Translations under genes and position numbers: made by a program
Shown: one piece after another, positions 34,841 to 38,860 of the stretch
How the letters are laid out: the number at the start of each line of letters is the position of its first letter
Position numbering within the stretch: position 1 is the first letter of the stretch
Assembly: GCF_030696665.1 (NCBI RefSeq)
Contig: NZ_JAUYRV010000028.1
Span: forward strand, 124,001 to 188,000
Reading direction: 5' to 3'
DNA from: Novosphingobium sp.
Lineage (GTDB): Bacteria; Pseudomonadota; Alphaproteobacteria; Sphingomonadales; Sphingomonadaceae
DNA: 64,000 nt
The notes under the pieces: model-generated
The model's input: only the letters and a program-made list of their open reading frames with translations
Told to the model about the DNA's origin: nothing
The model's database searches: none

Positions 34841-35938
34841 TCATCTTTGTAATGCTTGGACAATTTCATCCCAGCCGAGCAACTTGAAGTTCTGTGCTGC
34901 CGGTGCATTGTCGCCGTCCTGCGCTACGAATAGCCCGCCGGGAAATGCGGGACCGAAATCCCCCAGCGCCAGTTCGATCCCATCGGTGTCGCTGGTCGCC
35001 CCAAAGCGTCCAGCGGCAATGCGGAACCGTCCCCTTGGGGCAGCCGTGGCCAGATCGAACAGGACATAGGCGTTGTCGCCTTGGCTCGATGCAACGAGGA
35101 ACCCGCCGTCTTCGCCCGCAGGGGCCAGCGCAAGGCCTTCCACGTCATCGACCAGGCCCTTGTCCGGCCCGACCATCGCAAAGGCTTGTGCGCTCAGCGA
35201 CGCTGGCTTCAGATCCACCTTCCAGATGCCGACGTCTTCCTCGGCAACGTAGAGAATGCCTGTCCGGTCATCCACCACGCAGCCTTCGGATTGCGTGGCA
35301 AACTTCACCGAACGCACATATTCCGCACGGATCGTTTCGCCAGCATCGATCAGGCGGCTTTCAGCCACTTCGCCGTCCTTGAGCACGACATAGGCCCGCG
35401 CCAGCTCTCCAGCACCCAGCGCCTTGCCCATGCAGAAACCATAGGCCTGCACCGGCGCGCGCCCCGCCGCCATGAAGGCCTGCGCGCCCAGAGCGGTCAG
35501 TTTGCCACTTGCGCCATCCAGCGTGAACAGCGCGATCTTGGGCACTGCGCCATCGGTCCGGTCACTGGCACCCACCAGAATGCGCCCCGGCGCAACTTCG
35601 CGCAGGTCCACATTGTTGAGCAGCCCTGCGGCCACAAAATCGCGCACTTTGCCGTCCAGCCCATAGACGTAAAGCCCGGCCTTCTTGTCCGTCCCCAGGA
35701 TCAGGCTGGCCGCAGGATTGGCCGCATTGCGCCAGATCGCCGGATCGTCCGCCGCATCAGCCTTGCCCGTGCCCACCGGTGCGGTTTCACCCGTGGCCTG
35801 AACATCGACGGCTGGATAGGAGGGGCGCGGAGCAGCCTGCATCCCGGCGCAACCGCCCAGCAGGCCCGCGCAAAGCGAAACGGCCAAAGCCGAGAGCAAC
35901 GCCCCCGGCCCTGGCTTTACGATAGCGTTCCGCCCCAT
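34841..35938 (-). CDS. phy: Beta-propeller phytase, probable lipoprotein
   Basis: Secreted 3-phytase of the beta-propeller family, releasing phosphate from inositol hexakisphosphate. The N-terminus has a lipoprotein-like signal (LCAGLLGGCAG). Family motifs include ADDPAIWRN, LILGTDKKAGLYVYGLDGK, NNVDLRE, YVAEEDVGIWK and DVEGLALAP, with acidic residues expected to bind calcium. The 365-aa length is normal. The start codon shares one base with the TBDR stop (TGATG), so the two are coupled. Phytase next to a TBDR is a known alphaproteobacterial pairing for phytate use. A Pho-box-like array before the TBDR suggests phosphate control. Confidence 0.93.
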   Translation of the reverse strand: MGRNAIVKPGPGALLSALAVSLCAGLLGGCAGMQAAPRPSYPAVDVQATGETAPVGTGKADAADDPAIWRNAANPAASLILGTDKKAGLYVYGLDGKVRDFVAAGLLNNVDLREVAPGRILVGASDRTDGAVPKIALFTLDGASGKLTALGAQAFMAAGRAPVQAYGFCMGKALGAGELARAYVVLKDGEVAESRLIDAGETIRAEYVRSVKFATQSEGCVVDDRTGILYVAEEDVGIWKVDLKPASLSAQAFAMVGPDKGLVDDVEGLALAPAGEDGGFLVASSQGDNAYVLFDLATAAPRGRFRIAAGRFGATSDTDGIELALGDFGPAFPGGLFVAQDGDNAPAAQNFKLLGWDEIVQALQR

Positions 35939-38286
35939 CAGAACGCGTACCGTGCGACGATCTGGAACACTGGCCCTGCTTCTTCGGATTCGAGTTCGTA
36001 TTCATCAAAGTCGCGCGCGATCTGGTCACCCGTCGTCGCAAACTTGTTGAACACTTCGTCCTTGCTGCTGTTGAGCAGGTTTGAACCCACCGCGCGGATG
36101 GTGAAGCTCTTGCCGATGCGCTTCTCGACGAAGATTTCGAGGTCGGCACCGTACGTCGTGGTCACTTCTTCGCCCACGGTGCGGTCATAGGCCGAACCCT
36201 GCTTGCGATAGGTTGCGCCGAACGAAGCGCCAACGCTTGGCAGGTTCTGGATGACGCCGAAGTTGTAGACGAACTTCGACTGGCCGTTGAAGCGGCGGCT
36301 GCCGAATTCGTCTTCGATGGAGCTGTCAATCAGCGACAGGTTGCCGAACACACCGGTGTCTGGCAGCCCCACCGCGCCAAGGTCAGCCGAAAGATCGAAC
36401 TCCACGCCCCACACTTCGCCATCACCCACGTTGCGCGGCTGATAGACGAACGTGCCCGGTCCTTCAGAACCCTCAACCTGCGTGTTGGTCAGCTCGACCA
36501 GATCCTGCACCTTGCGGTAGAACACGTTGACCCCGATCACTCCGGTTTGGCCAAGGCGATATTCATAGCCAAGATCGCCACCCCATGCTGTTTCCGGGCG
36601 CAGGCTGGTGTTGCCGAGCAGATCGTTGTCACCCAATTCGGCTTCCAGCAGTGCAGGCGAGATATAGTCGAAGCGCGGGCGACGCACGGTGCGCGCAGCC
36701 GATGCTGTCAGGCGTCCGTCACCCAACTGAACCTTGACCGATGCCGATGGCAGCAGGAAGTTGTACTTCACGCGGGTCTGCGTTGCGGCAGTCAGGTCGT
36801 TGATGTTGACCGTGGTGTTTTCCCAGCGAACACCGGCTTCATACTTCACCCCGCCATTGCTGCCTTCGACCAGCGCATAAAGATCGCGGCGATCTTCCTC
36901 GATGGTGTTGAGGCCGCCCGGCGTGTTGGTGGTGGCCGGAAACGCGATAGCAAACGCGTCAGGATTGTTGGTGAACTGGTTGTACGTCAGCAGCGAAGCG
37001 CGCGGCACGTTGAAGCGGTTGCGCACGTCCGAAATGTCGGTGTCACGGTCCTTGTTCTGGGCAAAGCCGCCCAGCGCAAGCTCAAGGCCTTCGCTCAGCT
37101 TGAAGGTCTGCTCCAACTGCATCGAAAGTTCATCGTCGCGGATATCGGTCAGCGAGTAGTCGCCGGTATAGCGCGGCGTGGAGCGGTCGAACTCGATCTC
37201 GTGCTCGAACTCTTCTTCCTTGTTGTCAAACCGGGCAAATCCGATGCGCGCCGTGGTCTTGCCAAGGTCTGTTTCCTTGATGAACTTGGCAGTTGCGGCC
37301 CAGCTTTCCTGTTTGATGAACAGCGGGTTGTAGTTGTCATAGGTCAGGTTGCCATTGGCGTTGATGCGAATGGGACCGGTCGTCGATGTCGGATCGTTAT
37401 AGCCCGACGAACGCTCGATCTGGTCGCGATCCGTGCGCACATAGTTGCCCGCGATCTCGAACTTGTTCTCGCCGTCGTCATAGGCCCAGCTCAGGTTGCC
37501 GGCATAGTCGGTGCCATTGCGGGTATCGGCCTGATCTTCCCGGTCGGCAAAGTCGTCGGTGGCGTAGTTCGGGTTGTTCTCGGGCGAATCGCCATAACGG
37601 AAGCTGGTCTTCTTCTTGGGGTTGTAACGTCCCTGCACGTTCACGCCCGCCAGCAGACGGCCGGGACCGAACTTGCCGCCATAGTAAAGGCCGCCCGAAG
37701 GCTTGATCTCGCCATCGTCAAAGATCAGCGCACCGCCGCGAACATAGCCGCCGTCCATCGAAAACGCATCGCGCAGCACGATGTTGAGCGTTCCCGCCAC
37801 CGCATCGCCAGTACGGCGCGCCGAGTTGGAGCGCACGATCTCGACCTGCTTGATCAGTTCGGCCGGAACGCGATCAAGGAAGAACGAGCGGTCGACGTTC
37901 GATCCGGGAATGCGGTCCCCGTTGATCAGGATCTGGGTGTAACCCGGATCGAGGCCGCGCAGGCGTGCGCCGTCAGATTCCAGCACGTCCGAAAGGAACG
38001 TCACCGAAGGCACGCGCTTCAGCGCATCGCCTGCGGTCAGCGGTTCGAAGCGGCGGAAGTATTCCTCGTCATAGACCAGAACCGGTTCGGCCTGATCGCT
38101 GTGATTGCGGAAACCGATTGTGCCCTGCACCACGATTTCGCGCGCCGTGCGGGTTTGATCGTCTGCCATGTCAGCAGCCGCATCGGGCGCAACCTGTTCA
38201 TCGGCAGCGTATGCAGGAGTGGCCAGACAAAGGGCAGCGCTGCACAGCAGGATCGCGCGGCGCGATCGCTCAAAAATCTCGGTCAT
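35938..38286 (-). CDS. TonB-dependent receptor of the phytase operon
   Basis: Outer-membrane receptor of 782 aa, presumed to take up phytate or its breakdown products. Signal peptide cut near TPAYA. Plug motifs are REIVVQGTIGF, DGARLRGLDPGYTQILINGDR and ARRTGDAVAGTLNIVLR. The barrel ends in VARYAF. Two in-frame ATGs exist. I choose 38286 (MTEIFERSRR) because GAGGGA lies 10 nt before it. The ATG at 38304 has no ribosome-binding site. The phytase follows directly. Transcription probably starts at the Pho-box-like array about 50-100 bp upstream. Confidence 0.93.
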   Translation of the reverse strand: MTEIFERSRRAILLCSAALCLATPAYAADEQVAPDAAADMADDQTRTAREIVVQGTIGFRNHSDQAEPVLVYDEEYFRRFEPLTAGDALKRVPSVTFLSDVLESDGARLRGLDPGYTQILINGDRIPGSNVDRSFFLDRVPAELIKQVEIVRSNSARRTGDAVAGTLNIVLRDAFSMDGGYVRGGALIFDDGEIKPSGGLYYGGKFGPGRLLAGVNVQGRYNPKKKTSFRYGDSPENNPNYATDDFADREDQADTRNGTDYAGNLSWAYDDGENKFEIAGNYVRTDRDQIERSSGYNDPTSTTGPIRINANGNLTYDNYNPLFIKQESWAATAKFIKETDLGKTTARIGFARFDNKEEEFEHEIEFDRSTPRYTGDYSLTDIRDDELSMQLEQTFKLSEGLELALGGFAQNKDRDTDISDVRNRFNVPRASLLTYNQFTNNPDAFAIAFPATTNTPGGLNTIEEDRRDLYALVEGSNGGVKYEAGVRWENTTVNINDLTAATQTRVKYNFLLPSASVKVQLGDGRLTASAARTVRRPRFDYISPALLEAELGDNDLLGNTSLRPETAWGGDLGYEYRLGQTGVIGVNVFYRKVQDLVELTNTQVEGSEGPGTFVYQPRNVGDGEVWGVEFDLSADLGAVGLPDTGVFGNLSLIDSSIEDEFGSRRFNGQSKFVYNFGVIQNLPSVGASFGATYRKQGSAYDRTVGEEVTTTYGADLEIFVEKRIGKSFTIRAVGSNLLNSSKDEVFNKFATTGDQIARDFDEYELESEEAGPVFQIVARYAF

Positions 38287-38338
38287 GGTCTTGGTATCCC
38301 TCATGGAAACGCTTTGCTTGGCGTCGCCTCTAGGGATG

Positions 38339-38382
38339 GTTCCTGACCGTTTTGCGACGGTTCCGGGACGGATTTACGACAA
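38339..38382 (-). promoter_or_regulatory. Four tandem 11-bp PhoB-box-like units
   Basis: Read on the minus strand, consecutive 11-mers are TTGTCGTAAAT, CCGTCCCGGAA, CCGTCGCAAAA and CGGTCAGGAAC. Each carries GTC at positions 3-5, matching the 11-bp period and CTGTCATAAAT unit of Pho boxes. Units 1-2 match the classical 18-bp box at about 14 positions. It lies upstream of the TBDR-phytase operon. Binding by PhoB is inferred. Confidence 0.6.
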
Positions 38383-38412: not shown

Positions 38413-38497
38413 TGGTGCGGACGGCGGGACTCGAACCCGCACGATCAAGGATCAAGGGATTTTAAGTCCCTGGCGTCTACCATTCCGCCACGTCCGC
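38413..38497 (-). tRNA. tRNA-Leu (anticodon TAA)
   Basis: The cloverleaf on the minus strand begins GCGGACGTGGCGGAATGG and ends with the T-arm GGGTTCGAGTCCC, acceptor CGTCCGC, discriminator A and an encoded CCA. The anticodon stem AGGGA/TCCCT holds loop CTTAAAA, so the anticodon is TAA, reading UUA. The long variable arm expected for tRNA-Leu is present. Confidence 0.97.
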
Positions 38498-38578: not shown

Positions 38579-38860
38579 TCAGTCCGCGTTCAGCCGAACC
38601 CGCATTTCCTTGCCTGCCTTGAAATAAGGCACGCGCTTGCCCGGCACTTCCACCGTTTCCCCGGTGCGCGGGTTGCGGCCCTTGCGGGCATCGCGTTCCC
38701 GCGTGGAAAACGCGCCAAAGCCGCGCAGTTCCACGCGTCCCCCTTCGGCGAGACGCTTTGCGATCTCGTCGAAGAAGACATCGACAACGCGCTCGATTTC
38801 CTCGCTGCGCATCCCCGGACTCTCTTTGGTGAGCGCCTGCAGCAGCTCCGATCGTATCAT
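38579..38860 (-). CDS. ihfB: Integration host factor subunit beta
   Basis: DNA-bending HU/IHF-family protein of 93 aa. Visible are [17 protein letters not shown] at the start, then [26 protein letters not shown], the DNA-binding arm with the intercalating Pro region. Works as a heterodimer with IHF-alpha, not encoded here. The track ORF extends to 38995. The ATG at 38860 with GGAGGGA about 7 nt before it is the real start. Its sequence is closer to IHF-beta than to HU. Confidence 0.93.

Follow-up and report, generated by a model that had tools for sequence, protein, structure and literature searches.

The window analysed here, a 64-kb stretch of Novosphingobium DNA taken at its full length, carries on its minus strand a pair of genes for an outer-membrane receptor and a phytase, preceded by a short array of direct repeats. 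The first gene (35938..38304, minus strand) encodes a TonB-dependent receptor recognized by matches to the Plug and beta-barrel domains (PF07715, PF00593), and the second (34841..35938, minus strand) a beta-propeller phytase that is a putative lipoprotein (LLGG-C). The domain matches place both products in their respective families, the phytase through PF02333 at 220.5 bits and, in addition, through matches to the solved phytases 3amr and 1poo at E ~1e-52. The receptor stop and the phytase start overlap in TGATG, so that the pair is translationally coupled, which bears out the claim of the initial annotation that a receptor coupled to a phytase lies downstream of the array. Translation of the receptor probably begins at the second ATG, at 38286, since the first ATG falls inside a conserved GAGGGA stretch resembling a ribosome-binding site and, in the orthologous locus L031, has an in-frame stop after it.

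Upstream on the same strand a tRNA-Leu(taa) gene (38413..38497) ends 30 bp before the array, and beyond it lies a conserved neighbor encoding an HU-type DNA-binding protein (38579..38860, minus strand; the listed open reading frame reaches 38995 upstream), which serves as a marker of synteny. Four-unit arrays also occur in other receptor-phytase operons (L197, L198, L199, L201) that lie immediately behind tRNA-Thr(ggt), and tRNA 3′ ends seem to be a recurrent home of such operons.

An array of 11-bp units in the -35 region

A PHO box consists of two 11-nt direct repeats on which PhoB is bound head-to-tail (PMC4415409), and its spacing to the core promoter is strict (PMC10294691). In the window the minus strand from 38382 to 38339 reads TTGTCGTAAAT, CCGTCCCGGAA, CCGTCGCAAAA and CGGTCAGGAAC, and the letters agree with the original description of four abutting 11-mers that carry GTC at the same place with an exact 11-bp period. 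We annotate these 44 positions (38339..38382, minus strand) as a predicted PhoB operator of four abutting 11-bp PHO units on the combined basis of sequence, shuffles, an E. coli matrix, orthologs and a promoter profile. The units are relaxed versions (nGTC) of the PHO-box core, about CTGTCA(T/C): the full CTGTCAT occurs in none of them, and at position 2, a T in the E. coli consensus, units 2-4 have C or G. A conserved CCTAGAG (38328..38334, minus strand), the predicted -10 element, lies 15 nt downstream of the last unit, counted from start to start, and the array thereby occupies the -35 region of the predicted promoter, as a PHO box does when it replaces the -35 element at a fixed distance from the -10. 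The genes that follow, for a receptor and a beta-propeller phytase, are of the phosphate-acquisition kind found downstream of PHO boxes.

The bare pattern of four GTC triplets at period 11 matches once in the 64-kb window, where dinucleotide shuffles give a mean expectation of 0.03 and a match in 1 of 100 shuffles. Across the whole genome it is not significant by itself. It matches twice and proves little alone, because a reversed control pattern also matches twice, and it was dropped as genome-wide evidence. The sole other exact match in the genome (L286:1450-1551) lies between a polyphosphate kinase gene and a divergent TonB-dependent receptor gene.

A matrix for single units was built from E. 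coli sites alone (pstS, phoA, phoB, ugpB, phoH and phoE, with letters checked in MG1655). Under this matrix the window units score 5.7, 0.9, 2.1 and 2.2 bits (units 1-4) and are individually weak, and their four-unit sum ranks first among the 127,914 four-unit positions of the window. Within 1.6 Mb of the genome, some 8 positions score as high at period 11, with similar numbers at most other periods; the matrix alone is thus insufficient to call the site, and a PHO-box call from the single sequence is tentative. Among promoters sampled from the same genome, just 3 of 1,159 reach the score of the window site. One high scorer, L216:17476, belongs to a PMT_2 protein with no evident phosphate link, and its unit score may be due to chance. 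It is promoter position and conservation that raise the window site above chance.

Conservation of the array and its recurrence in unrelated operons

The orthologous promoters, at the HU - tRNA-Leu site of four other Novosphingobium species, have retained the array. Its units read TTGTCATCGAA, CGGTCTTCGAA, CCGTCGCAAAA and CAGTCAGCACC in L031; CTGTCGCCGAA, CGGTATTCGCG, CCGTCGCAAAA and CCGTCAGCAAC in L032; ATGTCGCCAAA, CCGTCTTCGTA, CCGTCGCAAAA and CGGTCAGCAAC in L033; and ATGTCATGCAA, CTGTCTGTAAA, CAGTCGCAAAA and CCGTCAGGTGA in L189, where receptor and phytase are orthologous and the tRNA was not recognised. In each of these four, C(C/T)TAGA follows next downstream, and some units, such as TTGTCATCGAA in L031 and ATGTCATGCAA in L189, are nearer the consensus than those of the window. 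The initial annotation had proposed such an alignment as a check and absence of the periodicity in related genomes as evidence against its reading; the alignment retains the 11-bp register with GTC in 19 of 20 units, and period 11 is kept in all four other species.

Promoters of unrelated receptor-phytase operons contain the same units, 2-4 in each. The E. coli matrix was applied to three promoter sets, and the best four-unit scores in each were averaged. At period 11 this mean reaches 13.2 in the orthologous promoters (at most 0.6 at the other periods from 6 to 17), 16.4 in non-orthologous receptor-phytase promoters of the genus (at most -1.8), and 9.4 in promoters of orthologous receptors from other genera, Pseudoalteromonas among them (at most -3.0); block shuffles give about -6. 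The signal thus appears at period 11 only, in all three promoter sets. Among the 5 orthologous promoters the spacing between the last unit and CCTAG is a constant 15 nt, and it recurs in nearly all of the unrelated ones. It is present in 10 non-orthologous promoters in an anchored alignment whose members were selected partly by that spacing, and in most of these it was also measured independently of anchoring.

A 55-bp profile was trained solely on these 10 promoters, whose receptors are all non-orthologous to the one in the window. Several of them are close to one another, and segments were picked for training by an nGTCA placed 15 nt ahead of a CTA-type element, a choice that favors the fixed spacing; under this profile the window site ranks first in the window with 22.9 bits against 1.9 for the runner-up, and is the highest score in 1.66 Mb of its own genome, scanned in pieces. 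With the -10 element left out, the 44-bp array keeps the top rank in the window (17.7 against 7.4). Scans of the kind suggested at the outset put this site first under the E. coli matrix in the window and under the unrelated-operon profile in both the window and the 1.66 Mb.

These results bear directly on whether the array is a chance periodicity, without regulatory function, in GTC-rich, GC-rich DNA downstream of a tRNA gene. Such an origin would fit the roughly 8 equal E. coli-matrix scores in 1.6 Mb and the equal genome-wide frequency of the control pattern, but the register is conserved across species and unrelated receptor families, the 15-nt spacing to CCTAG is fixed, and the site ranks first under a profile blind to its orthologs; we regard a chance origin as extremely improbable. 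The number of working units is a separate question that arises within the PhoB explanation itself, of which it is a sub-case. Only one or two units might function, as an ordinary two-unit PHO box, with the rest degenerate or merely lengthening the site without function. Unit 2 scores just 0.9 bits and has GTA in N. hassiacum, and in other genera there are promoters with 2 clear units, or with 3 of which the middle one is degenerate. Against this, the GTC columns (positions 3-5 of the unit) are among the most conserved in the orthologs, at 1.0, 1.0 and 0.95, and unit 3 hardly varies, so that a two-unit box is doubtful here, if still of appreciable weight.

The location of the array after a tRNA gene also bears on how the operon is transcribed. 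It could be constitutive or driven from the tRNA promoter by read-through from tRNA-Leu, which is on the same strand 30 bp upstream, with PhoB merely modulating or repressing; several receptor-phytase operons likewise follow tRNA genes. The -10-like element at a fixed distance from the array suggests instead that the operon has a PhoB-type start of its own, and for many operons that share this array no tRNA was found in the stretch examined. Constitutive expression or read-through as the main source of transcription accordingly seems very unlikely.

The syntenic site, flanked by HU - tRNA-Leu and by PilZ, combines an orthologous phytase with a varying receptor (L031, L032, L033, L185, L186, L190, L196; also L076, L078, L082 and L088). 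The window, L031 and L033 have receptors of one family (A), L186 and L190 an unrelated receptor, and L185 an unrelated receptor in divergent orientation. L196 has no receptor and retains array-like units before the phytase, and L032 (N. hassiacum) has lost the phytase and retained the receptor. From the synteny of this handful of genomes, we lean towards a picture in which the four-unit PhoB operator with its fixed CCTAG spacing would be a standard, separable module of Novosphingobium receptor-phosphatase operons, and in which, within the order HU - tRNA-Leu - X - phytase - PilZ, the receptor gene would have given way to an unrelated one, or disappeared, under a kept array and phytase.

Two further sites in the same genome rank high by score or profile, and the L286 site came from the exact pattern search. 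In L254:2849-6686 the same kind of array with CCTAG precedes a receptor gene followed by one for a secreted-looking Y_phosphatase3 (CX5R) protein, a pair that is a possible second phosphate-scavenging operon. An array-like site with CCTAGAC at L232:13388 (minus strand) stands before the gene for a 530-aa putative lipoprotein, followed by that for a 948-aa TonB-dependent receptor. L254, L232 and L286 together form a coherent predicted phosphate-starvation set.

The candidate regulator and a probable gap in the assembly

Relatives have a complete phoR-pstS-pstC-pstA-pstB-phoU-phoB operon, and PhoB is 96-98% identical among close relatives, with a recognition helix (RTVDVHIRRLR) that matches that of E. 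coli PhoB letter for letter. Searches of the assembly to which the window belongs found no PhoU, PstS or PhoB, nor any match to the flanking block, which spans phoR and RNase J and extends into the complex I (nuo) genes. Of 150 good Novosphingobium genomes, 149 have PhoU, and this one is the exception. Compared with L152 and L182 the missing block is about 35 kb, although the completeness of the assembly is given as 98.9%. Because the whole collinear block into the complex I genes is absent along with phoB and pst, an assembly gap, probably a missing contig, is the most likely explanation; loss of the Pho system from the organism was rejected, since phoU, pstS and phoB are missing together with the entire phoR-RNase J-complex I block.

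The phoR-pst promoter of 19 relatives has no clear PHO box by eye; there is thus no experimentally anchored Novosphingobium PHO site, and this promoter, lacking a visible box, was not used as a genus-specific training set. Upstream of phoR-pstSCAB-phoUB in Novosphingobium (L150-L169) a TTGCG...CCTAT-like promoter stands in place of an obvious PHO box, and autoregulation of this operon is possibly unlike that in E. coli.

The absence of phoB from the assembly leaves some room for a different member of the OmpR/PhoB family that binds 11-bp direct repeats, such as a ChvI-, CenR- or OmpR-like regulator, and at least 10 other OmpR-type regulators are encoded in the genome. However, the match of the units to the E. 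coli PhoB matrix is specific to period 11, the recognition helices of the five paralogs examined in this genome depart from that of E. coli PhoB where the PhoB of relatives is identical to it, and the array precedes phosphate-scavenging genes in several unrelated operons. Use of the array by such a regulator is very improbable.

A probable PhoB-dependent promoter and its known counterparts

We conclude from the sequence comparisons, with a probability of roughly 0.88, that the array is the PhoB-dependent, class II-like promoter of the receptor-phytase operon, and that phosphate shortage very probably turns the operon on. The conserved period, the recurrence in unrelated promoters, the fixed spacing to the -10 and the PhoB helix in relatives uphold the PhoB-activated promoter first proposed for this site; against it stand the weakness of the units under the E. 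coli matrix, the absence of phoB from the assembly and a phoR-pst promoter without an obvious PHO box. In the mechanism we propose, PhoR would phosphorylate PhoB when phosphate is scarce, and PhoB would bind head-to-tail, presumably cooperatively, on the four 11-bp units. The start-proximal unit would replace the -35 box, with the PhoB bound there touching sigma70 and RNA polymerase, and the polymerase would use the adjacent CCTAGAG as its -10. Receptor and lipoprotein phytase would then be made from one translationally coupled operon; the phytase would free phosphate from phytate, and the receptor may import phytate or its breakdown products.

The array also supports phytate or its products as the substrate class of the receptor. 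More broadly, it offers a testable model of the PhoB operator for sphingomonads, for which no description of a PHO-box motif was found in the literature searched, and predicts further phosphate-starvation genes in this organism: the receptor with Y_phosphatase3, the receptor beside polyphosphate kinase, and the lipoprotein with its receptor.

Related systems share parts of this picture. In the alphaproteobacterium Caulobacter crescentus, TonB-dependent receptors and a phytase belong to the PhoB regulon (PMC11208175), a likeness in regulon content; neither a motif nor a box count for the phytase promoter was found in that paper. In Citromicrobium, a sphingomonad relative, a TonB-dependent receptor gene likewise adjoins a phytase gene, with phytate proposed as substrate on the grounds of gene context (PMC3400609); no promoter analysis was found in the passage concerned. 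The closest promoter counterparts are in E. coli. Its pstS promoter (CTGTCATAAAA, CTGTCATATTC, CTTACATATAA, CTGTCACCTGT) also places four abutting 11-bp units directly before the -10 with no separate -35, although its units are nearer CTGTCAT and AT-rich, and it drives a Pi transporter instead of an outer-membrane receptor and a phytase. The ugp operon has multiple PHO boxes (PMC4415409), and ugpB resembles the window in placing more than two tandem units ahead of an operon for organophosphate scavenging; it differs in being AT-rich and in having an extra upstream promoter under cAMP-CRP control. Both pstS and ugpB have four in-register units when checked in MG1655, so that the initial emphasis on four units as more than the usual two was overstated; as a switch the four-unit array is a well-built instance of a familiar type, and the number four is unexceptional.
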